Positions 34,813 to 54,428 of a stretch of DNA of 64,000 nucleotides are shown here, piece by piece. Position numbers and translations under genes: made by a program. The notes beneath the pieces were generated by a model. It worked only from the letters and a program-made list of their open reading frames with translations. It was not told where the DNA came from and made no database searches. The first letter of the stretch is position 1, and each line of letters starts with the position of its first letter. Location of the stretch: positions 248,001-312,000 of the forward strand of contig NZ_QLLY01000005.1 of assembly GCF_003259365.1 (NCBI RefSeq). Direction: 5' to 3'. The DNA comes from Streptomyces sp. PsTaAH-137 (lineage in GTDB: Bacteria; Actinomycetota; Actinomycetes; Streptomycetales; Streptomycetaceae).

Positions 34813-36213
34813 ATGACGGACGTGTTCGCGCGACGCCCCGAGGACGAGCCGGGTCTGCGGTTCTACGCGGACGGGGTGCCGCCGTCCCTGTCGGTGCCCC
34901 GGGTACCGCTGTCCGCGCTGCTGGACGACGCGGCCCGCCGCTTCGGGTCCCGCACGGCGCTGTCCCACCACGGCCGCAGGACCGGATACCGCGCGCTGCG
35001 CCGCTCGACGGTGCGGGTCGCGGCGGCTCTTGAACGGCTGGGGGTGCGGCGGGGCACCTGGGTGCTCACGCTGCTGCCGGACTGCCCGGAGCTGGTCGTG
35101 CTGTGCCAGGCCGCCTGGCGTCTCGGCGCGGTCCTGGTGCCGTGGCATCCGGCGGACCACCGGTCGGCGGGCGCCGTCCTCGCGGGCCGGGCGGGGCCGG
35201 TGGTCGTCGCGGTGCCGCGCGAGCCGGACGCCGAGACCGTCAAGGCGTGGGGCTGCGAGGTGCTGGTGACGGTGGACGTCCCCGGGCCCCGCCCCGCGCC
35301 GTCCGGCGCCGTCGGCCGCCCGCGGGTGAGGCGTCAGCCGAGCCCGGTCGTGGTCCGCTGGCGGGACCTCGACCGCAGCCGCACGGGAGCGCTGCCCGAG
35401 GTGCGGGACCGGCCGTGGTCGCGCGGCCCGGAGCCCGACGACATCGCGGTGATCCGGTACAGGCGTGGCGGCGCCCCGGTCGCGCTGTGCCACCGGCATC
35501 TGATGGCGGCCGCGCATCAACTGGCCGCCTGGTATCCGGAGTTGTCCCGGCGTCGGGGACGGCTGCTCTCGCTGGCGCCGCTGTGGACGGTGCGGGGGCT
35601 CGTCCTCGGGACGCTGGCGGCGCCGTTGGTCGGGGCGCGCACCGTCCTGGTGCCGGATCCGGCTCCGGCGGCGGTGCTGCGGGCCGCACGCCGGGCCGCG
35701 CCGACCGTGCTCGCGGCGCCGCCCGCCACCCTGGTCCGGCTCCTGGAGCGTCCCGCGCACGAGCGGGAGGCGCTCGCCACGGTGCGCGCGGTGCTCACCG
35801 CACCGCTGGACGCGGCGACCGGGCGGCGGGTGCGGGAGACGTTCGGCGCCCGGATCGTGGAGGCGTACGGGCCGGACGCGGCCTGCGGTGTCGCGCTCGC
35901 CAACCCGCCGACGGCGGACGCCCGTTCGGGCACGGCGGGGCTCGCGCTGCCCGGCACCCGGGTGCGGATCGCGGTGGAGGGGAACCTCGCGGCGGACGCG
36001 CTGCCGGGCGACGCCGGTGAGCTGTTGCTGCGCGGCCCCCAGGTCAGCAGGCTCCGCGTCGGGGAGGTCGAGGACGTGCTGCCGGACGGCTGGCTGCGGA
36101 CGGGGCGGCTCGCGGTGCGCGGGCCCGACGGATTCGTCACGCTCCTCGGCGACTCCACCGGGGCCGCCGGCGTCGGCGGTTCCGGTGGCGTCCCGGGCGG
36201 CGGAGCGCGATGA
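34813..36213 (+). CDS. Degenerate adenylate-forming (AMP-binding) protein, lacks C-terminal domain
   Basis: A 466-residue protein with the fold pattern of acyl-CoA/acyl-AMP ligases (PLSALLDDAARRFGSRTAL, LPDCPELVVLCQAAWRLGAV) but with the catalytic motifs lost. The P-loop region (about residues 213-226) reads IRYRRGGAPVALCH without the TSGxTG core; the A5 motif is AYGPDAACG (about 351-359) without its Thr-Glu; and in GWLRTGRLA (426-434) the ATP-ribose-binding Asp is Arg. The protein ends at the hinge, so the small C-terminal domain with the catalytic lysine is absent (family length 550-600). It is probably not an active ligase and may be a partner or regulator of the fatty acyl-AMP ligase. Its promoter carries operator site 1. 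Confidence 0.75.
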   Translation: MTDVFARRPEDEPGLRFYADGVPPSLSVPRVPLSALLDDAARRFGSRTALSHHGRRTGYRALRRSTVRVAAALERLGVRRGTWVLTLLPDCPELVVLCQAAWRLGAVLVPWHPADHRSAGAVLAGRAGPVVVAVPREPDAETVKAWGCEVLVTVDVPGPRPAPSGAVGRPRVRRQPSPVVVRWRDLDRSRTGALPEVRDRPWSRGPEPDDIAVIRYRRGGAPVALCHRHLMAAAHQLAAWYPELSRRRGRLLSLAPLWTVRGLVLGTLAAPLVGARTVLVPDPAPAAVLRAARRAAPTVLAAPPATLVRLLERPAHEREALATVRAVLTAPLDAATGRRVRETFGARIVEAYGPDAACGVALANPPTADARSGTAGLALPGTRVRIAVEGNLAADALPGDAGELLLRGPQVSRLRVGEVEDVLPDGWLRTGRLAVRGPDGFVTLLGDSTGAAGVGGSGGVPGGGAR

Positions 36214-37576
36214 GGGTCACCAGCGCCCCGAACAGGACGCATCCGGCGGCCAGTTGGAGTCCGTTGTCGTAGCCGTCGAGGAAGGCGGCACGCGGGTCGG
36301 CGCCGTCGCGCAACGCCCCGCGTTCGGTGCGGGTGAGCACGATGCCGACGAGAACGACGCCGAACACGCCGCTGATCTCGCGTGCCGCACTGACCAGGCC
36401 CGACGCCATGCCGGTGCGGGTGGCGGGGACGCCCGCGACGGAGCGAACGGTCAGCGGTGTGGTGAGCGCCGAGCCGACGCCGATCAGCAGCAGCCCCGGC
36501 TGCAGTTCCGCGTACGTGGCGTGCGCCCCGGTGCGGGAGACGAGGACGAGGCCCGCCGCGACCAGGGCGAGCCCTGCGGCGATGGACCGGTGCGCGCCGA
36601 GGAGGCGGGCCGCGCGCTCCGCGAACGGCGTGCAGACCAGCAGGGCTCCGGCCAGCGGCAGGAACGCGAGGCCCGCCTTCACCGGGGAGAAGCCGAGCAC
36701 GTGCTGGAGGTAGAGGGCGGTGAAGAAGAAGACTCCGTTGACGCCGATGCCCCACAGCACCTGCGCCGCGACCCCGCCGACGAGGAACCGGTCGCGCAGC
36801 ATCCGCAGGTCCACCACCGGGAGGAAGGTGCGGGTCTCGACCACCAGGAAGGCCGCCCCGGCCGCCGCCGCCAGCCACAGGCACAGCGGGACGGGCGGGG
36901 TGCTGAAGGTGTCCTCGCCGCCTTTGACCAGGGCGTAGGTCAGGAGGAACAGGGCGAGCGCGGAGAGGGCGACGCCGGGCAGGTCCAGGAGGGCGGGCAG
37001 GCGCGCGGCGCGTTGCCCGCGGGCGGCGGGGACGGCGGGGACGAGCAGCAGGGCGAGCACCCCGAACGGCACGTTGAGCAGGAACACCCAGTGCCAGCCC
37101 CAGTGTTCGGTGACGAAGCCGCCGATGACCGGGCCGAGCGCGAGGGCGATGGCCAGCGAGGCCGTCCACAGCCCGACGGCGGTGGCGCGGCGCCGGGCCG
37201 GCAGGTCGGCGGCGACGACCGCGAGGGACGCCGGGATGACGAGAGCGGCTCCGGTGCCCTGCACGGCGCGGGCCGCGACGAGCGTGGTGCCGCTGTCCGC
37301 GAGGGCGGCCGCCGCGGAGGCGAGGGTGAACACGGCGAGGCCGGCGGCGAGCACCGGGCGGCGCCCGACGAGGTCGGTGAGCCGGCCGCCGGCCAGCAGC
37401 AGCGCCCCGAACGACAGGACGTAGCTGGTGGCGACCCACTCCAGGCCGGCGACCGAGAGCCCCAGGTCGTCCTGCACGCTGGGCAGCGCCACGTTGATGA
37501 CGGTGTTGTCGAGCGTGGTGAGGAATCCGGCCAGGGACAGCAGGAGGAGCAGCGCCGACAGTCGTCCCCGGTGCAT
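36137..37576 (-). CDS. DHA2 (EmrB/QacA) family MFS exporter, 14 membrane segments
   Basis: A 479-residue protein with about 14 membrane helices. It has FLTTLDNTVINVALPSV in helix 1, motif A GGRLTDLVGRRPV after helix 2 and motif C GPVIGGFV in helix 5, all typical of proton-driven DHA2 exporters. GGGGAG precedes the ATG at 37576. It is divergent from the fatty acyl-AMP ligase gene and shares its intergenic region and operator site 2, so export of the cluster's product or an intermediate is likely. Its last 25 codons overlap, on the opposite strand, the end of the degenerate ligase gene by 77 bp. Confidence 0.88.
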   Translation of the reverse strand: MHRGRLSALLLLLSLAGFLTTLDNTVINVALPSVQDDLGLSVAGLEWVATSYVLSFGALLLAGGRLTDLVGRRPVLAAGLAVFTLASAAAALADSGTTLVAARAVQGTGAALVIPASLAVVAADLPARRRATAVGLWTASLAIALALGPVIGGFVTEHWGWHWVFLLNVPFGVLALLLVPAVPAARGQRAARLPALLDLPGVALSALALFLLTYALVKGGEDTFSTPPVPLCLWLAAAAGAAFLVVETRTFLPVVDLRMLRDRFLVGGVAAQVLWGIGVNGVFFFTALYLQHVLGFSPVKAGLAFLPLAGALLVCTPFAERAARLLGAHRSIAAGLALVAAGLVLVSRTGAHATYAELQPGLLLIGVGSALTTPLTVRSVAGVPATRTGMASGLVSAAREISGVFGVVLVGIVLTRTERGALRDGADPRAAFLDGYDNGLQLAAGCVLFGALVTLIALRRPGRHRNRRRRRPRWSRRGA

Positions 37577-37676
37577 GTGCCGCTCCCCTTCCGCCTGGCC
37601 CGTCGGACACCGGGATTGTCCGGGCCGGAGCGGCGGTCGCACTGCTGCGCGGGATGCCCATTCGGGGTGCGCGGCT

Positions 37677-37692
37677 TGTCATCCGGCTGACA
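37677..37692. promoter_or_regulatory. TGTCA-N6-TGACA operator, site 2
   Basis: TGTCA-TCCGGC-TGACA lies 105 bp before the fatty acyl-AMP ligase start and 100 bp before the divergent MFS start. Over 18 bp it matches site 1 at 15 positions (CTTGTCA...CTGACA). A further half-site, TGTCA, is at 37710-37714. The 13-mer TTCGGGGTGCGCG at 37661-37673 also occurs near site 1 (34761-34773). Confidence 0.65.
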
Positions 37693-37797
37693 TCCGGTGC
37701 CGCGCGAACTGTCACCGCCTCGTCTTTCTGCCGCACGCGCCGAAGCGGAACCTTGGGCCTCTGCCCCACCGTCCGTCACCTCCGTGGAGTTGCCGTC

Positions 37798-39543
37798 ATG
37801 ACCTCCCCGACGACTGACCCGACCGCCTGCGCCCCGGCCGGCGGGCCGCCCGAGGACGCGCCGCTGCTCACCGACCGGCTGCGTCACTGGGCGGCCGAGC
37901 GTGCCGCCCGCCGGGCCTTCACCCAGGTCGACTTCCCCGAGCCGCACTCCCCCGGTGTGCACCGGACCCTGGGCTGGCGCTCCCTGGAGGAGCGGGCCCG
38001 CGCGGTCGCCGGGCTCCTCGCGCGGACGGTGCGCCCGGCGGACCGGGTCGCGCTGCTGCTGCCGCAGGGCCTCGACTACGCGGTGGCGTTTCTGGGGTGC
38101 CTGTACGCGGGGGTCGTCGCGGTGCCGCTCTTCGGCCCCGGACTGCCGGGCCACGAGGGGCGGTTGGCGGCGGTTCTGGCGGACTGCGAACCGGCCTGTG
38201 TGCTCACCGACGGTCCGTCGCGGGGTTCCGTGGAGGCGTTCGTCGACGGCCGGATCCCCGTACTCGACACCAGCGGGGCGGGCCCGGCCCCGGCGGCGGA
38301 CGAGCTGCCGCGGCCGGCGGGCGACGACGTGGCGTATCTCCAGTACACGTCGGGCTCCACCCGCAGCCCGTCCGGGGTGATGGTGACGCACGCGAACGTC
38401 GTCGCCAACGCCCGGCAGGCGGTGACGGCGTTCGGCGCCGCGGCGGGCCGCACCACGACGGTCGGCTGGCTGCCGCTCTTCCACGACATGGGTCTGGTGC
38501 TGAGCGTGGCCGCGCCCGTGTACGCGGGGTTCTCCTCGGTGCTGCTCGACCCGGTGGCGTTCCTGGAGCGGCCGGTGCGCTGGCTGCGGCTGCTCGGCGG
38601 CTATCCGGGGACGATCAGCGCGGCGCCCAACTTCGCGTACGACTACTGCGTCTCGCGCGTCGACGCGGAGGAGCTGGCCGGGCTGCGGCTCGACCGGGTG
38701 GCGGCGCTGCTCAACGGCAGCGAACCGGTGCGGCCCAACACCCTTGAGCGGTTCCGGACGGTGTTCGCCGCCGCGGGGCTCGCGCCACAGGCGGTGTGTC
38801 CCGCGTACGGGCTCGCGGAGGCGACCGTGTTCGTGACGGCGGCCGACCGTACGGAGCCGTCGGTGACGGTGGAGTGCGACGCGGCGGCGCTCGCGGCGGG
38901 CCGGATCGAGCCGGGCGGGACCGCGCGCCTGGTCGACTGCGGCCGTCCGGTCGGCCAGGAGGTGCGGATCACGGACCCGGACACGGGCACGGAGCTCGGC
39001 GCGGACCTGGTCGGGGAGATCGTGGTGCGCGGGCCGAACGTCGGCGCGGGCTACTGGAAGCAGCCCGAGCGCTCGGCGGAGACGTTCCGCGGCGGATGGC
39101 TGCGCACCGGCGATCTGGGGGCGCTGCACGACGGGCGGCTGCTGGTGACGGGCCGCCTCAAGGACCTCATCGTCGTCGACGGCCGCAATCACTATCCGCA
39201 GGACGTGGAGGAGACCGTGCAGTCCGTGGTGGAGCTGGTGCGCCGGGACCGGCTCGCGGCCTTCCTCGTCCCGCACTCCGGCGGCGCCGACGAGGGCGAG
39301 GAGCTGGTGGTCGTCGCCGAGGCGCGGCGCGACGCGGCTCCGGAGGAGGCGTCGGTGCGGGCGGCTGTCGCGGCGGCGCGCGGCGAGGTCGCCGCCCGGC
39401 ACGGGCTGCGCCTCGCCGCGCTGCTGCTCGTCCCGGCGGACTCGGTGCCGCGCACGTCGAGCGGGAAGGTGGCGCGGGCGGCGTGCCGGGAGCGTCTCCT
39501 CGCCGGAGATCTCCGGCCGTTCCCGGCGGGGGTGACGGAGTGA
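37798..39543 (+). CDS. Long-chain fatty acyl-AMP ligase (FadD32-like FAAL)
   Basis: A 581-residue adenylating enzyme. The P-loop is YTSGSTRSPSG (from residue 183), followed by the FAAL/FACL GWLPLFHDMGL motif. The hinge sequence GRLKDLIVVDGRNHYPQDVE is the form typical of fatty acyl-AMP ligases, which hand the acyl-AMP to an acyl carrier protein and not to CoA; the catalytic lysine is Lys557 (SSGKVAR). The stop overlaps the start of the synthase gene (GTGA), so the acyl chain is almost surely loaded on the synthase's N-terminal carrier domain, as FadD32 does for Pks13. TGGAG precedes the ATG. Chain length cannot be read from sequence. Confidence 0.9.
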   Translation: MTSPTTDPTACAPAGGPPEDAPLLTDRLRHWAAERAARRAFTQVDFPEPHSPGVHRTLGWRSLEERARAVAGLLARTVRPADRVALLLPQGLDYAVAFLGCLYAGVVAVPLFGPGLPGHEGRLAAVLADCEPACVLTDGPSRGSVEAFVDGRIPVLDTSGAGPAPAADELPRPAGDDVAYLQYTSGSTRSPSGVMVTHANVVANARQAVTAFGAAAGRTTTVGWLPLFHDMGLVLSVAAPVYAGFSSVLLDPVAFLERPVRWLRLLGGYPGTISAAPNFAYDYCVSRVDAEELAGLRLDRVAALLNGSEPVRPNTLERFRTVFAAAGLAPQAVCPAYGLAEATVFVTAADRTEPSVTVECDAAALAAGRIEPGGTARLVDCGRPVGQEVRITDPDTGTELGADLVGEIVVRGPNVGAGYWKQPERSAETFRGGWLRTGDLGALHDGRLLVTGRLKDLIVVDGRNHYPQDVEETVQSVVELVRRDRLAAFLVPHSGGADEGEELVVVAEARRDAAPEEASVRAAVAAARGEVAARHGLRLAALLLVPADSVPRTSSGKVARAACRERLLAGDLRPFPAGVTE

Positions 39544-42500
39544 ACGGCCGGGGCGACGGGACGGGCGGTGCCGAAGGGATCCGCGAGCTGCTGGTCACCC
39601 GGCTCGGCGCCTGGTACGGAGTCGCGCCCGAGGAGGTGACGGACGACCGGCCGCTCGCCGAACTGGGCCTCACCTCGCGCGACGCCGTCGCGCTCACGGC
39701 ACTGCTCGGGGAGGCGGTGGGGCGGCGGCTGCCCGCGACCCTGCTGTGGGAGTCGCCGACCCCGGCCGCGCTGCTGGCGGCGCTGACCGAACCCGAGGAG
39801 CCGGTCCAGGACAACGCACCTTCCCACCAAGGAAGTTCACCGGTCGCCGTCGTCGGTCTCGGCTGTCGCTTCCCCGGCGGCGCCGACTCCCCGGCCGCGT
39901 ACTGGCGGCTGCTCACCGAGGAGCGGGACGCCGTCACGACGGTGCCCGAGGGCCGCTGGGATCCCTTCGTGCCGCCGGGCTCGGAGCTGCCCGCCGGACT
40001 GTCCCGGCACGGCGGCTTCCTCCGTGACGACAGGGGCGATCAACTGGCTGCTTTCGACGCCGAGTTCTTCGGGATCGGCGTGGACGAGGCCGTCGCGCTC
40101 GATCCGCAGCAGCGGCTGCTCCTGGAGGTGGCGCGGGAGGCGCTCGACCACGCGGCGCTGCCCGCGCCCTCGCTCGCGGGCTCGCGGACCGGGGTGTTCG
40201 TCGGGGTCAGCGGCACCGAGTACGCCCATCTCACAGCGGCCCGGCCGGAGTCGGTGACCCCGTGGACCGCGTCGGGCGGCGCGCTGAGCGTGACCGCGGG
40301 CCGGCTGTCGTACCTGCTGGATCTGCGGGGCCCCTCCCTGGCCGTGGACACGGCGTGCTCCTCGTCGCTGGTGGTCGTCGACCACGCGGTGCGCAGTCTG
40401 GCGGAGGGCACGTCGGACGTGGCGCTCGCGGCCGGGGTGAACGTGCTGCTGTCGCCCGCCGTGACGCTCGGTTTCCAGCGGGCGGGCGCGCTGGCGGCGG
40501 ACGGCCGCTGCAAGGCCTTCGACGCCGCCGCCGACGGCATGGTGCGCGGGGAGGGCTGCGGGGTCGTCGTCCTCAAGCGGCTCGCGGACGCGGAGCGGGA
40601 CGGTGACCGGATCCTCGCCGTGATCACCGGTACCGGAGTGAACAGCGACGGCCGGTCGAACGGCCTGACCGCGCCGAACGGCTCCGCGCAGCGCGCCCTC
40701 GTTCGCCAAGTGCACGGCTCCGGAGGCCCGTTGGTCGACTACGTGGAGGCGCACGGAACCGGCACGCCGCTCGGCGACCCGGTCGAGGCTGCCGCGCTCG
40801 GCGCCGCGCTCGGCCGGGGCCGCCTTCCTCGACAGCCGCTGCTGCTCGGCTCGGTGAAGACGAACCTCGGGCATCTGGAGGCCGCCGCCGGGATCGCCGG
40901 CCTCATCAAGACGGTGCTCGCCCTGCACCACGACGAGCTGCCGCCGCAGCTGCACTTCACCGCGCCGGGACCGCACCTGGACCTCGACGCGCTCGGCCTG
41001 CGGGTCGTCGCGGAGCCCGAGCCGTGGCCCCGCTACTCGGGCACGGCGACGGCGGGCGTATCCGCGTTCGGGTTCAGCGGCACCAACGCGCATGTGGCGC
41101 TCGCCGAGCACCGGGTCCCGCCCGGGGCGGACGCCGGTCCGGCGGACCGGCCGTCGGTACTGCTGCTCGACGCGCCGACCCCTTCCCGGCTGCGCGCCCA
41201 GGCGGGCGAGCTGGCGGACTGGCTCGACTCCCCCGGCAGCGGTCCGGCCCGCCTCACGGACCTCGGCACGACCCTGGCGGGCCGGACCGGCCGGGGCCGG
41301 GCGCGGGCGGCCGTCGTGACCCACGACCGGGCCGGGGCGGCGACCGCCCTGCACCGCTTCGCCGCCGGATCCCCGGACGCCCGTCTCGTCACGGTGGACC
41401 GGCCGCCGCTGCGCGCGGGTGCCCCGGGCCCGGTCTGGGTGTTCTCCGGCTACGGCTCGCAGTGGCCCGGCATGGGCCGTCGGCTCCTCGCATCGGAACC
41501 GGTGTTCGCGGCCACCGTCGACCGGCTCGAACCCGTCCTGCGCGAGCACGCCGGAGTGTCCCTGCGCGCCGCGACCGAACCCGGCGCCGACCTGTCGTCG
41601 CCCGACGTCGTCATGCCCGTCCTGTACGGGCTTCAGGTCGCGCTCGCCGAGCTGTGGCGGTCCTACGGGGTCGAGCCCGCGGCGGTCATCGGGCACTCGC
41701 TCGGCGAGATTGCGGCGGCCGTCGCCGCGCAGGCCCTCGACCCGACGACGGGCGCGCGCATCGTCGCCGTGCGGTCCCGGCTCCTCGCGACGCTGCGCGG
41801 CGGCGCGATGGCCGTGGTCGATCAGCCGGCCGACGCCGTCGCCGACGTGGCGGGCACGCTGCCGTCGGTGCACATCGCGGTGCACGCCTCGCCCGAGCAG
41901 TGCGTGGTCACCGGTTCGGCCGACGACGTGGCGGCGCTCGTCGCCCGGGTCACCGCCGACGGGGGCTTCGCGCGGACCCTGCCGGTGACCGCGGCGGGGC
42001 ACTCGCCGGACGTGGAGCCGCTGCTCGACGAGTTCGCCTGGGAGCTGGGCACGGTGTCCTGCGCGCCCCCGCTGTGCCGACGCTACTCCACGGTCCTGGA
42101 CGATCCGCGGGCCGGCGATCCCTGCGACACGGCGTACTGGCGGCACAACCTGCGCCGTCCGGTGCGGTTCGCGCAGGCGGTGCGCGCGGCGGCCGACGAC
42201 GGGCATCGCGTCTTCGTCGAAGTCGCCCCGCATCCGACGCAGTTGCATCCGCTGACCCGCACCCTGGAGGCGGCGGGCGCGCCGGACGCGCTGATCGTGC
42301 CGACGCTGCGCCGCGGCACCGACGACGCGGTCGCGTTCCGCACCTCGCTCGCGACGCTGCTCGTGCACGGGGTGCCGGTGCCGTCGGCGCGCGAGACGCT
42401 GCACCCCGGCGGACGGATCGTCGACGTGCCCTCGCCGCGGTGGCGGCACCGGCGGTTCTGGTTCGGCGAGACACCCGAGACGCCCGAGACCCCTGAGCCG

Positions 42501-43604
42501 GACACCGAGGGGGTTCGCGCCACGCCTCTGGACCGGTTGCGGGCCGTGGTCGCCGGGGTGATGGGCTTCGGGCCCGACCGTCTCGACCCGGACGTGCCGC
42601 TCACCGAGCTGGGCCTCGACTCCCTCACCGCCGTCCGCATCAGGACCGCCGTGGAGCGGGAGTTCGGGGTGGAGGTGGAGCCGGGCGCGCTGCTGCGGCG
42701 GGGGACGCTGCGGGGCGTCGCGGAGCTGCTGGACGGCGGGCCCGGCACGGCCTCACCCCTCCTCCCCGATCCCTCCGTGCCCGCCGCGCACTCCGGCACG
42801 CCCGGTCTCCTGCGCACGTTCCCCGGCGACGGCCCCGGTGCCCCGCTGTTCCTGTGCCATGCCGCGGGGGGTTCGAGCGACGTGTACGGGCGGCTCGCGG
42901 CGCGGCTCGACGGGCGGCGCCCGGTGTTCGGCTTCGACCGGGTCGAGCGGCCCGACGACGTGCGGGCCCGGGCCGCCGAGTTCGCGTCCCGCATCCGTGC
43001 GATCCGGCCCGCGGGTCCGTGGGCGGTGGGCGGCTGGTCGTACGGCGGGCTCGTGGCCCAGGAGACCGCGCGGCTGCTGTCCCGGCACGGCACGGTGCCG
43101 GCGCTCGTCCTCGTCGACTCGGTGCTGCCGCTCCCGGCGCCGCCGGCCCGGACCCCGGCCGACGAGGCACGGCGCCGCTTCGCGGACTTCGCCGCGTACA
43201 TCGCCGCCACCTATGGAGCCGAACTCAGGCTCCCCTATGAGGACTTGGGGGCGCTGGACGACACCGGGCAGGTCGACCTGGTCCTCAAGCTCCTGGAACA
43301 GGCCGTCGAGCTGCCCGCGTCGGTGCTCGCGCATCAGCGGACCTCGTACCTCGATCTGCGCAGCGGTGAACGGCACACCCCGGGCCCCTACGCGGGGCGC
43401 ACCCTGCTGTACCGGGCGACGCTGCCCGCGCCGCACACGGTGCGCGACGCCCGCTACGAGCGCACCGACACAGCGCTCGGCTGGGACGCGTACTGCACCG
43501 ATCTCACCGTCACCCCGCTCACCGGGCACCACCTGGCGCTGCTCGATCCGCCGGTGGTCGACGATCTCGCCGCCGCCCTGACCCGCGACCTCGCCACCAA
43601 CTGA
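39540..43604 (+). CDS. Single-module polyketide synthase, ACP-KS-AT-ACP-TE (Pks13-like)
   Basis: A 1,354-residue synthase. Domains: N-terminal carrier (about 10-85; Ser46 in [10 protein letters not shown]), ketosynthase (about 100-525; Cys273 in DTACSSS, His405, His445), acyltransferase (about 630-920; Ser720 in GHSLGE; specificity motif AAGH at 818-821), second carrier (about 995-1065; Ser1028 in ELGLDSL), thioesterase (about 1100-1350; Ser1167 in GGWSYGG, Asp1193, His1330 or 1331). There are no reductive domains. This is the order of mycobacterial Pks13, which condenses an acyl-AMP-derived chain on the first carrier with a carboxyacyl unit on the second, but shorter (Pks13 is about 1,730). 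Expected product: an alpha-alkyl beta-keto acyl chain. The linker at 977-989 is a TPE repeat. GTG start coupled to the ligase gene. Confidence 0.9.
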
Positions 43605-43632
43605 CCCGTACCCCATTGCACTTGGAGTCCTC

Positions 43633-44649
43633 ATGCGCCGTCCCCGCAGACCGGCCCGCGCCCGCTCGACCGCGCTCGTGGCCGCCGTCGCCCTCTTCGC
43701 CACCGGCGGCGCGCTCGGCGCCTCGACGGCGCAGGGCGCGCCGGTGACGGCCGTCGGGCAGGGGGTACGGGCCGCCGACGGGGCCACGATCGTCGGGCAG
43801 ACCTGGCTGGACGACCGGACGGTCGATCTGACCGTCCGCTCCCCCGCCGTGGGCGCCGACGTGCCGGTGCGGGTGCTGCTGCCCGCCTCCTACGCGAGCG
43901 CGCCCGACCGGGAGCGGCCCGTCCTCTATCTGTTGCAGGGCGCGCACGACGACTACACGTCGTGGACGCGGGAGACGGACATCGAGACGTTCCTCGCCGA
44001 CCAGGACGTCATCACCGTCATGCCGTCCTCGGGGCCGACCGGGATCCCCACCGACTGGTGGAATCTCGGGCGGAGTTCGCCCGACTACGAGACGTTCCAG
44101 GTCGACGAGGTGATGCATCTGCTGCGCGGCGCGTTCCACGCGGGCGAGCGGCGGGCCGTCGCTGGGGTGTCCACCGGCGGGTACGGCGCGCTGGCGTTCG
44201 CGGCGCGCAGGCCCGGCACGTTCGCCGCGGCCGCCTCGTACAGCGGCGTCCTCGACACGACCGCGCTCGGCATGGTCACCGTCGTGAGCGCGATCGTGGC
44301 CCGGGAGCTGCAACTGCCCGGCATGTTGTGGGGCAACGCGATCCTGCAGCGCGCGAACTGGACCGCGCACAACCCGTACGCCCTGGCCGACCGGCTCAAG
44401 GGCACTCGCCTGTACCTCTCGCAGGGCAGCGGCATCCCCAGCACCGACTTCGGGAACCTCGAAGGCGGCGTCCTGGAGGGCACGTTGTGGGGACAGGCGA
44501 AGCAGTTCACCGCACGCCTGGCGGCGCTGGGCGTGCCCGCGCAGACCCATCTGTACCAGGGCGGCACGCACGGCTGGTCGTCCTGGCAGGGCGAGTTCGA
44601 GGCGTCGTGGCCGACGCTCGCCGCGGGCCTCGGACTCACCGGCAACTGA
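43633..44649 (+). CDS. Secreted antigen 85/esterase D-type acyltransferase (mycolyltransferase-like)
   Basis: A 338-residue alpha/beta hydrolase with a Sec signal peptide (about residues 1-36, cleavage at AQG-A). The nucleophile is Ser180 (GVSTGGYGAL); the histidine is His313 in GTHGWSSWQGEF, which parallels the HSWEYW region of antigen 85; YLLQGAHDDYTSW and the DWW segment also follow the antigen 85 pattern, and the acid is probably Glu277 or Glu282. Antigen 85 enzymes move mycolic acids between trehalose and cell-wall sugars. Coming 28 bp after the Pks13-like gene, it probably transfers or releases the cluster's acyl product outside the cell. A plain secreted esterase is the alternative. 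GGAG precedes the ATG. Confidence 0.82.
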   Translation: MRRPRRPARARSTALVAAVALFATGGALGASTAQGAPVTAVGQGVRAADGATIVGQTWLDDRTVDLTVRSPAVGADVPVRVLLPASYASAPDRERPVLYLLQGAHDDYTSWTRETDIETFLADQDVITVMPSSGPTGIPTDWWNLGRSSPDYETFQVDEVMHLLRGAFHAGERRAVAGVSTGGYGALAFAARRPGTFAAAASYSGVLDTTALGMVTVVSAIVARELQLPGMLWGNAILQRANWTAHNPYALADRLKGTRLYLSQGSGIPSTDFGNLEGGVLEGTLWGQAKQFTARLAALGVPAQTHLYQGGTHGWSSWQGEFEASWPTLAAGLGLTGN

Positions 44650-44685
44650 CCCCTCCGCCACACCCTCACGCCCGGAAGGAACGTC

Positions 44686-45975
44686 ATGGAACTCGATCCG
44701 CTCGCCGAAGCGGTACTGGCCGACGCGCCGCCCGACACCCTCGGCCGGTTACCGGTACCGGACGACTACGTGGCCGCGCACCTGCGGGCCGAGGACGTCG
44801 GCACGTTCACCGGTGTCGACGACAAGGACGTCCGCAAGTCGATCCACGTCGGCCGGGTCCCGATGCCCGAACTCGCCCCGGACGAAGTGTTGGTGGCGGT
44901 GCTCGCCAGCGGCATCAACCACAACACCGTGTGGTCGGCGATGTTCGAGCCGCTGTCCACCTTCTCCTTCCTGCGCAAGTTCGGCCGCGACGGCGGCTGG
45001 GCGGCACGGCATGACGCCCCGCAGCACGTCATCGGCTCGGACGCGGCCGGAGTGGTCGTGCGCGCGGGCGCGGGCGTGCGGCGCTGGCGGGTCGGCGACC
45101 GGGTGGTCGTCTCACCCGTGTACGTCGACGACGAGGACCCGGCGACGCACGCCGACGGGATGCGCGGCGCCTCACAGCTCGCCTGGGGCTTCGAGACGAA
45201 CTTCGGCGGCCTCGCCCACTACTGCGTCGCCCGCGCCAACCAACTCCTGCCGAAACCAGCCCACTTGACGTGGGAGGAGGCGGCCAGCAACCCGCTGTGC
45301 GCGGGCACCGCGTACCGGATGCTCGTCAGCGAGCGGGGCGCCCGGATGAAGCAGGGCGACGTCGTCCTCATCTGGGGCGCCGCGGGCGGCCTCGGCGCGT
45401 ACGCGGCGCAGCTCGTGCGCGGCGGTGGCGGTATCGCCGTCGGTGTCGTCGGCAGCGAGGAGAAGGCGCGCGCGGCGCGGGAGTTCGGCTGCCACGTCGT
45501 GATCGACCGGCGCGAGATCGGCCTCGACGGCGGGGTGCCCGAGGACCCGTCCGTGCCGGGGCGCCGCCTCGGCGCGCTGATCAGGAAGGAGGTCGGCGAG
45601 GACCCGCACATCGTCTTCGAGCATGTCGGCCGGGCGACCTTCGGCGTGTCCGTGTACGTGGTCGGGCGCGGCGGCACTGTGGTGACGTGCGGCTCGACCA
45701 CCGGCTACCAGCACGAGTTCGACAACCGCTACCTGTGGATGCGGCTCAAGCGCGTCATCGGCAGCCACGGCGTCAACCTCGACGAACTGGCCGCCATGCA
45801 GCGCCTGGTGGAGCTGGGCCGGCTGCGGCCCGCGCTGTCGGTGACGTACCCGCTGGAGGAGACGGCGGAGGCGGCCCGCCTCGTGCAGAGCGGACGGCAC
45901 ATCGGCAAGGTCGGGGTGCTGGCGCTCGCACCGCGGACCGGACTCGGAATCAGCGGGCCCGCGCCGGTTTCCTAG
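44686..45975 (+). CDS. ccr: Crotonyl-CoA carboxylase/reductase
   Basis: A 429-residue medium-chain dehydrogenase of the CCR group. It reduces a 2-enoyl-CoA with NADPH and carboxylates it to an alkylmalonyl-CoA. The NADPH loop is GAAGGLGAYA (231-240). Residues that hold CO2 in characterised CCRs are all conserved at matching places: Asn80 (INHNTVW), Phe169-Glu170 (GFETN) and His361 (GSHGVN). GGAAGGA precedes the ATG. Lying after the synthase and acyltransferase genes, it most likely supplies ethylmalonyl- or longer alkylmalonyl-CoA to the synthase AT domain, whose AAGH motif resembles that of ethylmalonyl-type ATs. It replaces the acyl-CoA carboxylase of the mycolate system. Confidence 0.92.
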   Translation: MELDPLAEAVLADAPPDTLGRLPVPDDYVAAHLRAEDVGTFTGVDDKDVRKSIHVGRVPMPELAPDEVLVAVLASGINHNTVWSAMFEPLSTFSFLRKFGRDGGWAARHDAPQHVIGSDAAGVVVRAGAGVRRWRVGDRVVVSPVYVDDEDPATHADGMRGASQLAWGFETNFGGLAHYCVARANQLLPKPAHLTWEEAASNPLCAGTAYRMLVSERGARMKQGDVVLIWGAAGGLGAYAAQLVRGGGGIAVGVVGSEEKARAAREFGCHVVIDRREIGLDGGVPEDPSVPGRRLGALIRKEVGEDPHIVFEHVGRATFGVSVYVVGRGGTVVTCGSTTGYQHEFDNRYLWMRLKRVIGSHGVNLDELAAMQRLVELGRLRPALSVTYPLEETAEAARLVQSGRHIGKVGVLALAPRTGLGISGPAPVS

Positions 45976-46004
45976 GGGCCGGTGAGCATGGGGGCCGACA
46001 GAAC

Positions 46005-46020
46005 TGTCAGATACATGACA
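46005..46020. promoter_or_regulatory. TGTCA-N6-TGACA operator, site 3 (regulator gene promoter)
   Basis: TGTCA-GATACA-TGACA lies 30 bp after the ccr stop and 119 bp before the PucR-type gene. It shares both arms and the 6-base spacer with sites 1 and 2. A second, overlapping dyad, GACAG-AA-CTGTC (45997-46008), uses the same TGTC half-site, which suggests additional protein contacts and autoregulation. Confidence 0.65.
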
Positions 46021-46139
46021 CCGTTCGGCGCGGCGGGAGGTTACGTCTGGCGCCGGGGGCGCGGGGACACCACCATGGCGTACCCCCGCAGAACCCCTAC
46101 AGATTCCCCCCAGGATCCCCGCCTCTGCTGGAGACCCCC

Positions 46140-47324
46140 ATGACCACCGCTCTGGCGCATCCGTTCCCCTCCGCGCCTCCCCCGCACGAGCTGCGCCGCC
46201 TGCTCGGCCGGTACGTCCCGGCCGCCGTGGCGGAGATGGAGCACGAGGTCACCGCCCGGCTCCCCGCCTATGCCGACGCGTTCAACCGCACCAGGGACTT
46301 CACGGTGCACCGGGTCGTCGACCGGACCGTGCACCTGTTCCTCGCCGCGCTCGGGGCGCCCGGGCCCGGCGCGGCAGCCCCGCTGTCGGACCTCACCGCC
46401 CTCTACGAGCGGCTCGGCGCCCAGCACTGCCGGTCCGGCCATCCGGTCGACACGCTGGGCACGGCCCTGGGCGTCGCGGGCCAGGTGGCCCGTCGGCGGC
46501 TGATCAGGGCCGCGTACCGGTTCCACTGGCCGGAGTCGACACTCGGGTGCCTGATCGAGACGACGTTCGTGCTGATCCGCGCGGCGACCGAGTCCGCGCT
46601 TGCCGGCTTCGCCCAGGAGGACGGGCCGCGCTCGGCGCTCGACGGGCGGCGGGCGCGGCTGCGGGACGCGCTGGTCGCGGACCTCCCCGTCGACGGCGCC
46701 TCGCTCACCGCGCTCGCCGAGGCGGCCGCCTGGCCGTTGCCGGACGCGGTGGCGGTGGTCGCCCTGCCACCGGGCACGGTGCCCCGCGCGGCGGCGCTGC
46801 CCGACGAGGTGCTGGTGCAGGACGCGCCCGACGCGCCGTATCTGATCCTGCCCGGCGAGCGCGCCGGGCTTCCGCTGCCGCGCACGAGGGGCGCCGCGCT
46901 CGGCCCGCTGGTGCCGGTCGGCCGGGCCGCCGACTCGCTGCGCTGGGCGCGGCACGCCGTCGAGCTCGTGCGCCGCGGTGTGCTGCCCGCGGGCCGGCCG
47001 CTGCGCTGCGCCGACCATCTCGGCACGCTCACCGCCTCGCGGGCTGGCGATCTGCTGGACGCGGCGGCCGTCCGGACCCTGGGACCGCTGCTGGAACTGC
47101 CCGAGCGGCGCCGGGCCCCGCTGCTGCGCACCCTGTTCGCCTACCTCGACAGCGGCGACAACGCCGTCGTGACGGCCCGGCGCCTGTACGTCCACGAGCA
47201 GACGGTGCGCTACCGGCTGCGGCAGATCGCCGCGGTGACCAGGGACGCCCAGCCGAGCGGGCAGGGCCGCCTGGAGACGATGCTGGTGCTCGCGCGGTTG
47301 CTCGGGGGCGGAGCCACCTCGTAG
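46140..47324 (+). CDS. PucR-type transcriptional regulator of the lipid cluster
   Basis: A 394-residue protein with an N-terminal helical region (about 10-165), a middle sensing region and a C-terminal PucR helix-turn-helix (AVVTARRLYVHEQTVRYRLR, about residues 342-361). GGAG lies before the ATG. It follows ccr in the same direction but has its own leader with operator site 3, so it is probably autoregulated and controls the cluster through the TGTCA-N6-TGACA sites. The assignment as cluster regulator is inferred from position and shared sites; the ligand is unknown, perhaps an acyl-CoA. Confidence 0.82.
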   Translation: MTTALAHPFPSAPPPHELRRLLGRYVPAAVAEMEHEVTARLPAYADAFNRTRDFTVHRVVDRTVHLFLAALGAPGPGAAAPLSDLTALYERLGAQHCRSGHPVDTLGTALGVAGQVARRRLIRAAYRFHWPESTLGCLIETTFVLIRAATESALAGFAQEDGPRSALDGRRARLRDALVADLPVDGASLTALAEAAAWPLPDAVAVVALPPGTVPRAAALPDEVLVQDAPDAPYLILPGERAGLPLPRTRGAALGPLVPVGRAADSLRWARHAVELVRRGVLPAGRPLRCADHLGTLTASRAGDLLDAAAVRTLGPLLELPERRRAPLLRTLFAYLDSGDNAVVTARRLYVHEQTVRYRLRQIAAVTRDAQPSGQGRLETMLVLARLLGGGATS

Positions 47325-50936: not shown

Positions 50937-51116
50937 TCAGACCAGCCACCACCAGCGGGCCACCAGAAGCGCCGCGACGACCAGCAGGACGACGAGCTCC
51001 AGCCAGAACAGCCGGTGATCGGCGCGCCGGTCCCGGCGGGTGAGTTCGCGGGCCCGCTCGGTGAGCGAGGGGACGTCGAACGGCCCCTGGCTCCCGGGGC
51101 TCTTGTGCGGTGTCAT
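50937..51116 (-). CDS. 59-residue single-pass membrane protein
   Basis: A tiny protein with a charged N-terminal half (LTERARELTRRDRRADHRLF) and one C-terminal membrane segment (about residues 39-56) ending in RWWWLV. The start ATG overlaps the stop of the glycosyltransferase gene (ATGA), so it is translationally coupled and very probably real. It may be an accessory subunit of the glycosyltransferase, in the way small membrane proteins accompany some synthases. No family recognised. Confidence 0.65.
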   Translation of the reverse strand: MTPHKSPGSQGPFDVPSLTERARELTRRDRRADHRLFWLELVVLLVVAALLVARWWWLV

Positions 51117-52609
51117 CGCGGCGCCGCCACCTTTCCGGTCTTCTCGGTCTTGTCCCAGGTCATCTGGGCGTGCCGGAGTTCCTGGACGAACGACGCGACC
51201 AGGCAGGCGGCCAGCAGCGAGCCGTATCCGGCGAGGTGGAGGAGAGGCGGTGCGAGCCACCGCATGCGGGTTCCGGTCAGCAGCTTGGCGCACCACGCGA
51301 TGGGCATGGACAGGGCGAGCCAGGCGTAGACGGCGATCATCACCGGGTGGGACGTGCCGTCCTGCGGCACCAGGCCGATCCGGTCGAGCACGGGGACGAA
51401 GACGCCGGGCAGCGCGGTGATCACGAGGATGCAGAAGGCGATGGCGCCGGGATAGATCAGCGCCTCGAACCAGCTGCGGCGGAACGTCGACGGGTCGATC
51501 ACCGCGCAGAGCAGCGTGATCAGCAGATAGCAGATCAGGTTGATCACCCACAGCACGTGGAACAGCGGCCAGGCGCGGTCGGGGTCGGTGAAGTACAGGA
51601 ACAGCAGCGAGGCGGAGCACGCCACGAGGAGCACCGGAGTGGCGAGCAGCGAGAACCAGATCAGGCCGAACAGGAACGAGCCGAGCCGGTGGGTGCCGCC
51701 CGAGGTCCGGCCGCGGAACCAGACGTCGCGGTAGCGGCGGGTGACCTGGACGTTGCCGCGCGCCCAGCGCAGCCGCTGCTTCCACAGGCCCGTCAGCGTC
51801 GCCGGTTCCTCGGCGAGCACGGTGGCGAAGCCGTCGAAGACGACGCGCCGCCCGGCCAGTTGGGTCTCGAAGGTGGTGACGGTGTCCTCGGCGAGCGTGC
51901 CGGTGTCGAACCGGCCGCCGATGGCCTCCAGGTTGGCCCGGGTGTGCAGCTGGGCCCCGCCGGCCAGACAGGCGACGACGCCCAGGACGTTCTGGGCGCG
52001 GCGGGCGGCGGCCTGGGCGGTGATGTACTCGTAGGCGATGTAGCGGGTGAGGTAGTTGCCCTGTTTCCCGCTGCCCTCCTTGATGTACGCGGTCACGGCG
52101 CCCACCTCGGGGTCGGCGAGGTGCCGGGTCATCCGCCACAGCGCGTCGTGCTCGAAGACGACGTCGGCGTCCATGACGAGCACCGCCTCGGCCCAGTCGT
52201 CGTCCAGGACGTGGGCGAGGCCGTGGTTGAGGGTGTGGGCCTTGCCCTGGCCGCCCTGTTCGCGGCGCAGGTGGACCACCTGGCCGGGATGGCGGCGGAT
52301 CAGCTCGCTCATCACGTCGGGCGTCTCGTCGGTGCTGGCGTCGTCGATGATGAAGACGCGCAGCCGGTCTCCCGGGTAGTGCAGGGAGAGCAGGGCCTCG
52401 ACGGAGCCGGTGAGGACGGGGGCCTCGTTCCAGGCGGGGATGAGGATGGCGGTGCACGGCAGGTACAGGTCGTCCCGGTCCTCGTACAGGTGCCGGAACC
52501 GTTGCAGCCCGATGAGCAGGAACTGGAGCACTCCGACGACCAGCGGCACCGCGCCGAGGAAGACGATCACCTCGGCGACGGTGTGCGCGATCCCGCCCAG
52601 GACGTTCAT
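51113..52609 (-). CDS. Processive family 2 glycosyltransferase (membrane polysaccharide synthase type)
   Basis: A 498-residue membrane glycosyltransferase. One N-terminal helix, then a GT2 catalytic domain with IIDDAS (first Asp), DADV (DxD), LAEDTVTT (ED base) and QRLRWARGN (Q/RxxRW), the full set of cellulose/hyaluronan synthase-type processive enzymes, then four or five C-terminal helices. It should polymerise and extrude a glycan from a nucleotide sugar. GGAGG precedes the ATG at 52609, which overlaps the stop of the PHP gene. There is no PilZ domain, so cyclic-di-GMP control is not indicated. Confidence 0.88.
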   Translation of the reverse strand: MNVLGGIAHTVAEVIVFLGAVPLVVGVLQFLLIGLQRFRHLYEDRDDLYLPCTAILIPAWNEAPVLTGSVEALLSLHYPGDRLRVFIIDDASTDETPDVMSELIRRHPGQVVHLRREQGGQGKAHTLNHGLAHVLDDDWAEAVLVMDADVVFEHDALWRMTRHLADPEVGAVTAYIKEGSGKQGNYLTRYIAYEYITAQAAARRAQNVLGVVACLAGGAQLHTRANLEAIGGRFDTGTLAEDTVTTFETQLAGRRVVFDGFATVLAEEPATLTGLWKQRLRWARGNVQVTRRYRDVWFRGRTSGGTHRLGSFLFGLIWFSLLATPVLLVACSASLLFLYFTDPDRAWPLFHVLWVINLICYLLITLLCAVIDPSTFRRSWFEALIYPGAIAFCILVITALPGVFVPVLDRIGLVPQDGTSHPVMIAVYAWLALSMPIAWCAKLLTGTRMRWLAPPLLHLAGYGSLLAACLVASFVQELRHAQMTWDKTEKTGKVAAPR

Positions 52610-53337
52610 CGCGCCTCCGCCTCGGCCAGGGCCTGCCGCACCCAGGGGAAGACCCCGACGGCGTCCGCCCGGTGCGCGTCGCTGCCCGCGACGAGCCGCA
52701 CCCCGGCGCGGGCGAGGAGGGCCGCGGTGCGCGGGGCGGGGCAGCGCCACTTCTCGTTGAGTTCGACCGGGACACCGTGTCTGCGGCAGGCGCGGGCCAG
52801 CGGTTCGAGGAGCGTGGCGTCGACCGCCGCCTCGTCGAGCCCGGCCTTGGGCAGCACGCTGAACAGGTGGGCGACATGAGCGCTGCGGCCCGCGGGTACC
52901 GCGGCCACGGCCCGGGCCGTGGCCCGGACGAGGAGTTCGAGCGCCGTGTCGGGGGTGAGCGCGCCGGTGGCGAGCCGCTCGCGGACCTCGTCGGGGTGGG
53001 CGGGTCCGGCCGGGAGGGGGAAGCGGTGGTCGGCGAGGGCGACGTGGTCGATGCCGGTGAGGTCGTCCGGCAGGTCGATCCGGCCGTCGGTGTCCATGAT
53101 CTTCGCCTCGACGCCGCAGACGAGGCTGACGGGGGTGGTGATGCGGGCGGCGCGCACGGCGGCCACGTACTGGGGCAGATAGGTGGTGTCGGCGCGGACG
53201 TGATCGGTGACGATCAGGGTGCCGAGCCCGGCGGTCTCGGCGGCGGCGACGACCCGGTCGAGCGGGTCGTGACCGTCGGAGAAGTCGGTGTGGGTGTGGA
53301 AGTCGGCGCGCAGGACCAGTGGGGGGCGCGGGCTCAT
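52606..53337 (-). CDS. PHP domain phosphoesterase
   Basis: A 243-residue PHP protein with the whole set of metal-binding motifs: DFHTHTDFSDGH near the N-terminus, VTDH, VCGVEAKI, the SAHVAHLF histidine and GSDAHR near the C-terminus. These are trinuclear-metal phosphoesterases acting on histidinol phosphate, nucleic acid ends, phosphotyrosine or sugar phosphates. Coupling on both sides (ATGA overlaps with the ATP-grasp gene before it and the glycosyltransferase gene after it) implies a step in the same pathway, such as removing a phosphate from an intermediate. Confidence 0.85.
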   Translation of the reverse strand: MSPRPPLVLRADFHTHTDFSDGHDPLDRVVAAAETAGLGTLIVTDHVRADTTYLPQYVAAVRAARITTPVSLVCGVEAKIMDTDGRIDLPDDLTGIDHVALADHRFPLPAGPAHPDEVRERLATGALTPDTALELLVRATARAVAAVPAGRSAHVAHLFSVLPKAGLDEAAVDATLLEPLARACRRHGVPVELNEKWRCPAPRTAALLARAGVRLVAGSDAHRADAVGVFPWVRQALAEAEAR

Positions 53338-54428
53338 CGCGGGCCTCCCGCGCCGGTCCCGGTCTCCCGTGCGTCCACCTTGCCCTCCATGGCTCCCATG
53401 TCGCCCAGTTCGGCGGGGTGCATGACGACGTCCTGCCAGTGCCGGACGACCGCGGTCTCGCGGTGGGCGATCCGGTCGGGCAGGTCGACGCCCAGGAGTC
53501 CGGCGACGGCCCAGCGGGGCATGTCGACCCCGGCGGCGACGGTCAGCGAGAGCCCGCCCGGCGGGCGCGGGTTGACCTCCAGGAGCGCGGGGCGGCCGTC
53601 GCGGTCCTCGCGCACCTGGACGTTGAGGACTCCGCGCAGGCCCAGCGTGTGCACGGTGGCCTCGGCGAGGGCGGACAGCTCGGGCGCGTGCAGGACGCGG
53701 CCCGCGACGACGATCCCGGAGTCTGTCTTGTCCCGGGCGCGCGGCACCGCGGCCACCACCCGTCCGGTGCCGTCGGTGAGCACGTCCACCGAGTACTCGG
53801 TGCCCGGCAGCATCTCCTGCACCAGGTACGAGCCGTCCTGCGGGAGCCGGGCGAGGCCGGCCGCGTCCTCGACGAGCGTCACCCCGCGCGAGCCGGATCC
53901 GGTCCGGGGTTTGGCGATGGCGGGGAAGCCGCCGTCGAACCCGTTCTCGGCACTGGCGCCCGAGGGACCGAGCAGGCGGGTGACCGGGACCCGTACGGCG
54001 CCCTCGCACGCCTGGGCGAGCCGCCATTTGTCCAGGCAGGTCTCCAGCCCGTCCGCGTGGGGGACCAGGACCCGTACGCCGGCGTCGGCGAAGCCGTCGG
54101 CGGCGCGGGCGAGCGCCACGAGCTCGGCGTCCACGGTGGGGACGAGCACGTCGACGGCGTATCTGCGGCACAGGGCCAGGGCGGCCCGCGCGAAGGCCGG
54201 GTCGTCGCCGGGCGGCAGCAGCAGCCGGTAGGCGCGGGGCACGAGGTACAGGCCCGCGCCGAGCGGGTCGATGTCGGCGGCGTACCGCTCGGCCGCGCCG
54301 TCGAGGGCGCGCAGGAAGCAGACGCCGGACGGTCCTCCGGCGCCGGTGACCAGCACTCTGGGCGGGCGGCCGAGGGGCGCCGCGAGATCGGGTCCCGCGA
54401 CCGGGCCGGGCCGGGTCGGCTCAGCCAT
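53334..54428 (-). CDS. ATP-grasp family ligase
   Basis: A 364-residue ATP-grasp protein like carbamoyl-phosphate-synthase-type and PylC-like ligases. An N-terminal Rossmann-like part (RVLVTGAGGPSGVCFLRAL, about 36-54) is followed by the ATP-binding region with AIAKPRTGSGSRGV, the hinge QEMLPGTEYSVDV and the metal/ATP motif EVNPRPPGG. It would join a carboxylate to an amine or similar nucleophile via acyl phosphate. The ATG at 54428 overlaps the PIG-L gene stop by 8 bp. Ligation of an amino acid to a sugar or lipid is a possible role, given the neighbours. Confidence 0.82.
   Translation of the reverse strand: MAEPTRPGPVAGPDLAAPLGRPPRVLVTGAGGPSGVCFLRALDGAAERYAADIDPLGAGLYLVPRAYRLLLPPGDDPAFARAALALCRRYAVDVLVPTVDAELVALARAADGFADAGVRVLVPHADGLETCLDKWRLAQACEGAVRVPVTRLLGPSGASAENGFDGGFPAIAKPRTGSGSRGVTLVEDAAGLARLPQDGSYLVQEMLPGTEYSVDVLTDGTGRVVAAVPRARDKTDSGIVVAGRVLHAPELSALAEATVHTLGLRGVLNVQVREDRDGRPALLEVNPRPPGGLSLTVAAGVDMPRWAVAGLLGVDLPDRIAHRETAVVRHWQDVVMHPAELGDMGAMEGKVDARETGTGAGGPR

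Follow-up and report, generated by a model that had tools for sequence, protein, structure and literature searches.

RESULTS

A mycolate-type condensation cassette in Streptomyces

We analyzed a 64,000-nucleotide stretch of Streptomyces sp. PsTaAH-137 (contig NZ_QLLY01000005.1, positions 248,001 to 312,000; hereafter the window) and, within it, a gene cassette at 34813-47324 that resembles the mycolic acid assembly genes of mycobacteria. The host genome is 8.96 Mb, and the closest named relatives of the cassette are found in Streptomyces. The original prediction, made from the sequence, had described a FadD32-like fatty acyl-AMP ligase (FAAL), a synthase in Pks13 order and an antigen 85 (Ag85)-like acyltransferase, accompanied by an exporter, a carboxylase/reductase and a regulator. 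All of the genes that it named are open reading frames at the places it gave. The features are listed below (MFS, major facilitator superfamily; ACP, acyl carrier protein; KS, ketosynthase; AT, acyltransferase; TE, thioesterase; KR, ketoreductase; CCR, enoyl-CoA carboxylase/reductase).

34813-36213, + strand: degenerate, truncated AMP-binding (adenylation) protein (PF00501 only)
36137-37642, - strand: DHA2-family MFS exporter (TIGR00711, 227.1 bits, cut-off 230.2)
37798-39543, + strand: FAAL (best PDB matches FadD32-type, 385 bits)
39540-43604, + strand: ACP-KS-AT-ACP-TE synthase without KR (Pfam; best PDB match Pks13)
41691-42005, + strand: from the AT active site (GHSLGE) to the specificity motif (TAAGHS), which is of the xAGH type with a small residue (AT alignment)
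42807-43601, + strand: TE domain, Pks13-TE type (PDB matches)
43633-44649, + strand: secreted mycoloyltransferase-like acyltransferase/esterase (PDB search, Foldseek, triad)
44686-45975, + strand: CinF-type CCR (best PDB match CinF; TIGR01751)
46140-47324, + strand: PucR/CdaR-type regulator (PF13556 HTH_30)

Because the FAAL stop codon (TGA) and the synthase start codon (GTG, 39540) share four bases, we agree with the original prediction that the two genes are translationally coupled; the GTG at 38796 that the open reading frame list gives as the synthase start is too far upstream. The 1354-residue synthase has the proposed domain order of Pks13, as seen from Pfam matches, and both ACP serines, the KS Cys-His-His triad, the AT serine and the TE serine are present. 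It contains no reductase domain, and the stretch between the AT and the second ACP is short. The exporter, ccr and regulator genes that had been counted as part of the set were recognized by TIGR00711 (just below its cut-off), TIGR01751 and PF13556, respectively, and the DHA2 protein is likely to be a lipid exporter.

The synthase, FAAL and esterase are kin of mycolate assembly enzymes

The best PDB match of the synthase was Pks13 (854 bits), followed by mycocerosic acid synthase (625 bits). When the TE was searched alone, its seven best PDB matches were all Pks13 (7e-41 to 2.8e-37), with the next match at 2e-14. We refer below to cassettes with the CCR route as type A and to those with a carboxylase (AccD) route as type B. 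A KS-AT tree of 38 rows was built from 19 cassette synthases (Streptomyces types A, B and C and other families), six Pks13 proteins and 13 other polyketide synthases (PKSs) that were among the matches listed for the Pks13 model; two of the cassette rows (L056 and L191) are identical, being one locus fetched twice. Cassette synthases and Pks13 formed one group (support 100/99) apart from the 13 other PKSs, and not the grouping with ordinary PKSs that would have spoken against the original prediction. An earlier KS tree, which took 15 of the 24 Pks13 rows and after which the cassette group was defined, gave the same grouping at 90/85. In the KS-AT tree, the Pks13 rows are a clade of their own (100/100) on a long branch, with the window synthase outside it. 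Within the joint group the lineages branch in no well-supported order, and a single clade of all cassettes minus Pks13 was not rejected (p-AU 0.24).

The AT specificity motif is of the AGH type in all eight type A rows, in all nine printed type B rows (12 in the set), in the one type C row and in five of seven other cassettes, whereas the 16 printed Pks13 rows have GASH (13) or GAGH (3); at most nine distinct motif sets were listed per group. An AGH-type motif would suit larger extender units.

Residues 24-574 of the 581-residue FAAL align to the FadD32-type structure. Its P-loop, YTSGSTRSPSG, matches the FadD32 alignment, and the protein has the features of the FAAL family. In a FAAL tree, which kept 11 of 13 Streptomyces cassettes, one of three other cassettes and six of seven mycolata loci (the rest were lost to a coverage filter or to the removal of identical rows), the cassette FAALs grouped together at 81/80 and those of Streptomyces types A and B at 99/98.

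The esterase, whose signal peptide was read from the sequence by eye and not by a prediction program, matched the corynebacterial mycoloyltransferases PS1/MytA (9e-39) and Cmt1 (4e-26) in the PDB search and, further down, another esterase (8e-18) and then Ag85A (3e-15). The first 24 Foldseek rows obtained with its AlphaFold2 model (pLDDT 82.7) were all mycoloyltransferases. A Ser180-Glu282-His313 triad is fully conserved, both in 13 cassette esterases and in an alignment of 11 rows with three mycolata enzymes among them, so the protein combines a predicted mycoloyltransferase fold with a Ser-Glu-His triad. In the esterase tree, 16 mycolata rows are separated by a 100/100 branch from 28 other rows, among them lone relatives outside cassettes; one mycolata row with a very long branch sits on the non-mycolata side. 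The tree lost L294, L297, L298 and L304 (no match) and L301 and L302 (short). Sequence search, predicted structure and tree all place the protein apart from unrelated esterases, and its position in the tree led us to reject membership in the Ag85/mycolata mycoloyltransferase clade.

Several lone relatives of the esterase were seen in Streptomyces. No cassette genes are present in the fetched stretches around L264 (G000:C1:649500-669000), L265, L266, L272 and L308 (12001-12870). In S. fungicidicus, a 927 kb plasmid carries one of the lone esterases, at a place for which the incomplete gene table shows no gene. On the 6 kb contig of L269 (G262:C176), an MFS gene accompanies the esterase relative and there is no synthase, although the contig ends may hide one.

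The window CCR is of the CinF type

CinF was the best PDB match of the CCR (606 bits; next, 458), and TIGR01751 scored 533.2 bits, above its cut-off of 378.55. At the two pocket positions, presumably Ala163 and Gly362 in CinF numbering, the window CCR has Ala and Gly, as does CinF; in the ordinary CCR of the alignment these residues are Ile and Phe. The Ala and Gly pocket is present in all 27 distinct cassette CCRs (31 hits). CinF has a broad enoyl-CoA scope, according to PMC8252502. Compared with CinF, RevT and the other CCRs that form alkylmalonyl-CoA, the window enzyme would differ in supplying a Pks13-like single-module synthase and not a modular assembly line.

The cassette is conserved and widespread

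Of 295 genomes of the genus, 147 contain an esterase match at E 1e-20, the weaker matches including lone relatives. Among the 30 best own-genus loci (that of PsTaAH-137 included), a synthase match adjoins the esterase in every one; within the same short flanks, a CCR was found at seven and a PucR match at 22. We also took the best 80 of 182 relatives found with the esterase query, 78 of them titled Streptomyces and two "Actinobacteria bacterium". All 80 have a synthase beside the esterase, 72 a FAAL and 65 a PucR-type match (29-41% identical, on either side). A cutinase is present in 54, a second secreted protein in 53 and an MFS match in 21, one of which (L149) is just 30% identical. The order AccD-FAAL-synthase-esterase-PucR-cutinase occurs in 49. 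Because the synthase adjoins the esterase in all of these relatives and own-genus loci, the neighborhood is beyond chance, and we rejected a fortuitous arrangement. The gene set is conserved and common, not a singleton, and we conclude that it is a real mycolate-type condensation cassette.

The enzyme that would supply the alpha chain varies. An AccD4-like AccD is encoded at 52 of the 80 relatives and a CCR at 16, with no locus having both; 12 have neither, six of them being cut short upstream. Among 91 distinct KR-less loci, 61 have AccD, 18 have CCR and again none has both ("distinct" counts omit duplicates, since eight of the 20 regions of one fetch were loci fetched again). AccD accompanies a type A synthase at L144 (placed by tree) and L146 (placed by similarity), and the supply enzyme changes at least three times on the synthase tree; G537 was coded as CCR, a CCR was later found there, and the count is still three without it. 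The CCR thus appears to stand in for AccD4 in the window cassette.

In the AccD-type sisters, the cutinase and the second protein both have signal-peptide-like starts. A conserved protein of ~500-590 residues without a Pfam match adjoins the cutinase in these cassettes (L046, 14184-15851, - strand); it holds a GHSLGG stretch and is perhaps a lipase.

KR-bearing cassettes occur in other families

When the Pks13 model was run over 296 genomes of the class, 24 matches scored 2583-2845 bits, all in family f4, which we equate with the mycolic acid family. Below them, eight matches (942-1022 bits) came from families f17 and f18. At seven of these eight loci an esterase match lies no more than about 7 kb away, and all eight have a KR match, the KR query having been confirmed by Pfam. 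Family f46 has the row FAAL-synthase-AccD-esterase. Nonomuraea gerenzanensis carries a CCR, a KR-bearing synthase, an esterase, a glycosyltransferase, an MFS protein, an MmpL protein and a FAAL within 35 kb, a complete KR-type cassette; its record (L306, NZ_LT559118.1; 11.85 Mb) is listed as a plasmid, and its size suggests a chromosome. The plasmid records of Nonomuraea and Embleya list no annotated genes in the region concerned.

In total, 17 KR-type loci were collected (six from Streptomyces, one from Nonomuraea and 10 from other families). A GT1/GT28-type glycosyltransferase is present at nine of the 17, versus none of the 91 distinct KR-less loci, and an MmpL gene at five (L276, L281, L282, L306 and L103) versus one of 91; these counts are lower bounds because flank lengths differ. 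The MmpL genes recall MmpL3, which serves mycolate export in mycobacteria. MFS genes also adjoin many KR-type cassettes.

Comparison with the mycolic acid locus

Passages of PMC9900942 describe the fadD32-pks13-accD4 locus as exclusive to mycolic acid producers. There, FadD32 loads a long chain onto the first ACP and AccD4 carboxylates the alpha chain, whereupon Pks13 condenses the two; the Pks13 TE then links the product to trehalose, and reduction by CmrA completes the sequence (same passages). The mycobacterial cluster from Rv3799c to Rv3804c includes a cutinase, as stated in an excerpt of PMC2625445. In the window, as in the mycolic acid locus (fadD32-pks13-accD4, fbp and Rv3802c), a FAAL immediately precedes an ACP-KS-AT-ACP-TE synthase, and an enzyme with the mycoloyltransferase fold lies close by; the AccD-type Streptomyces sisters additionally share the carboxyltransferase and a cutinase-family protein with that locus. 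The window differs in having a CCR and no AccD, and its proteins belong to sister lineages. Gene order also differs: esterases-FAAL-synthase-AccD in mycolata, with AccD first and the esterase after the synthase in the AccD-type sisters. All 10 mycolata loci examined matched the FAAL, synthase, esterase and AccD queries, and none matched the cutinase, CCR, MFS, PucR, glycosyltransferase, MmpL or KR queries. Because the Culp6 model gave the Streptomyces cutinase just 26 bits, with a cut-off of 570, the protein lies outside that family and may parallel Rv3802c without being of the same family.

In an AccD tree, the AccD proteins of Streptomyces cassettes, of G562 (one of the eight f17/f18 loci) and of Pks13-adjacent loci formed one group with moderate support (84/78), beside paralogues that we take to be of the propionyl-CoA carboxylase type. 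The cassette AccDs lie outside the 100/100 clade of Pks13-locus AccD. The tree kept eight of 10 Streptomyces loci, and two further cassette AccDs (L216 and L229) sit among rows labelled paralogues.

DISCUSSION

A proposed pathway

From the gene order, domains, motifs, kinship and conservation observed, we infer a scheme in which the substrates and chain lengths, the limit to one condensation, what becomes of the keto group, the acceptor and the part played by the esterase are deduced, as is each chemical step. The FAAL would convert a fatty acid to acyl-AMP and load it onto the N-terminal ACP. The CCR would turn a medium or long 2-enoyl-CoA into alkylmalonyl-CoA by reductive carboxylation, in place of the AccD4-type carboxylase of mycobacteria and most of the sister cassettes fetched. 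The AT, with its xAGH pocket, would put the alkylmalonyl unit on the second ACP, and the KS would carry out one decarboxylative Claisen condensation to an alpha-alkyl beta-ketoacyl-ACP. Since there is no KR in cis, the product would stay a beta-keto compound unless reduced by an enzyme encoded elsewhere. The Pks13-type TE might then pass the chain to an acceptor or to water, and the DHA2 pump would export the product. Outside the cell, the secreted mycoloyltransferase-like enzyme would move the acyl chain to another acceptor or cleave it.

We consider the chemistry as far as the alpha-alkyl beta-ketoacyl chain probable, and transfer to an acceptor outside the cell plausible. A swap of CCR for carboxylase can work in Streptomyces, because MccB, according to PMC5187497, can replace the CCR RevT. 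MccB (SamR0483 of the stambomycin cluster) provides a carboxylase route to medium-chain alkylmalonyl-CoA, and is likened to the cassette AccD by role alone.

Several observations weigh against this scheme or against a close tie to mycolate assembly. The NCBIfam Pks13 equivalog model NF040607 scored 1160.5 bits on the synthase, in four stretches, below its cut-off of 2100, and the FadD32 model scored 451 bits on the FAAL, below 975. The AT, taken alone, is closer to the ATs of mycocerosate and phthiocerol synthases than to that of Pks13. The cassette FAAL clade adjoins both the FadD32 clade and another FAAL clade, presumably of the FadD26/28 type, and the tree fixes no order among the three. 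Since some esterase relatives stand alone, with no cassette genes around them, membership in the esterase family does not by itself imply this lipid. Six relatives with full flanks have neither CCR nor AccD within 10 kb, and at G562, a KR-type locus, AccD and MFS genes adjoin the synthase and no esterase match was found in the fetched stretches. Finally, four of the genes that recur around Streptomyces cassettes (MFS, PucR, CCR and cutinase) are those whose queries matched none of the mycolata loci.

In view of the cut-offs missed and the separate clades, we rejected the synthase as a member of Pks13 and the FAAL as a member of FadD32. The likeness to FadD32, Pks13 and Ag85 that had originally been claimed stands as kinship, in PDB searches, trees and Foldseek, and does not extend to membership: judged from these comparisons, the cassette proteins are sister lineages of the three.

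Alternative explanations

The cassette might instead make a small diffusible metabolite, a signal, antibiotic or ketone and not an envelope lipid, by one condensation in which the chain is of medium length and the alpha branch is short (ethyl to hexyl); the TE would then hydrolyze the chain, and the secreted esterase would merely trim or detoxify. Clustered CCRs supply adjoining polyketide synthases, as an excerpt of PMC5187497 states, and the closest CCR of solved structure, CinF, acts on octenoyl-CoA. The presence of a DHA2 exporter and a PucR regulator would be in keeping with a metabolite cluster, as would the patchy distribution of the cassette within the genus. This has to be set against the resemblance of both the TE and the esterase to acyl-transfer enzymes of mycolate assembly, and against the AccD-type sisters, whose cutinase and second signal-peptide-like protein indicate lipid work outside the cell. 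We regard the small metabolite as possible, on the doubtful side.

A glycolipid of the glucolipsin kind seems unlikely. Glucolipsin, from Streptomyces and Nocardia, is dimeric, each half combining glucose and a 2-methyl-3-hydroxy C18 acid, according to PMC4365757, which also describes macrodiolide glycolipids of this type as having an alpha-branched beta-hydroxy acyl chain esterified to C6 of glucose. On this model, glucose would be attached to the 3-OH of a branched hydroxy acid, and the mycoloyltransferase-like enzyme would esterify the carboxyl group of that acid to C6 of the glucose in a second unit, much as Ag85 joins mycolate to trehalose. The glycosyltransferases found at KR-type loci fit such a product, although eight of the 17 KR loci gave no glycosyltransferase match (flank lengths differing) and a literature search turned up no glucolipsin gene cluster; glucolipsin is known here as a compound only. 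Because the window cassette has neither a KR nor a GT1/GT28-type glycosyltransferase, the model is limited to the KR-bearing sister type.

That the genes are unrelated, with a stand-alone FAAL-PKS pair lying near a metabolic ccr and a secreted esterase of housekeeping function, is very improbable: single members do occur elsewhere (lone esterases; other ketosynthases in the genome), but the synthase-esterase pairing holds in all 80 relatives and in other families, including Nonomuraea.

Significance of the cassette

On the preferred reading, the branched-lipid pathway set out above, a bacterium that does not belong to the mycolic acid group may couple two fatty chains to form a branched lipid that is processed outside the cell. 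With its occurrence in Streptomyces and Nonomuraea, the related gene set would provide an outgroup for mycolate assembly and hint at its origin. Rather tentatively, we suggest that many non-mycolata actinomycetes could make exported mycolate-like lipids through a common ancestral cassette, link them to a sugar or to a polymer of the surface and draw the alpha chain from a carboxylase or a CCR, with mycolic acid synthesis as one offshoot. Bacteria that carry the set would offer harmless hosts for studying FAAL-Pks13-mycoloyltransferase chemistry, and cassettes that exchange CCR for carboxylase while retaining their other genes amount to a natural experiment on alpha-chain supply. From the cassette one would expect this heavily mined genus to contain a class of branched lipids that are exported. 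In agreement with the original prediction, our literature search found no such lipid class, no known product and no description of a Streptomyces cassette; most subscription journals lay outside its scope, and an earlier description is possible.

Neighboring genes

The protein encoded at 34813-36213 has no C-terminal domain by Pfam and lacks the usual ATP-loop motif, which is also missing in all four other aligned rows of its relatives (two of these rows are one locus fetched twice, L128 and L039). Such relatives adjoin a few type A cassettes (L143, L124 and L128, the same as L039). Because the motif is lost, we did not adopt the gene as a CoA ligase supplying the CCR; its product is probably a non-catalytic relic or accessory protein, possibly a pseudo-enzyme.

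Downstream of the cassette, at 51113-55551, lie genes for a family 2 glycosyltransferase, an ATP-grasp protein and a PIG-L deacetylase, perhaps a separate small cluster. Histidine-kinase-like, roadblock-like, small GTPase-like and P450 genes lie downstream of some type A cassettes (L040-L043), in a row that resembles a conservon.

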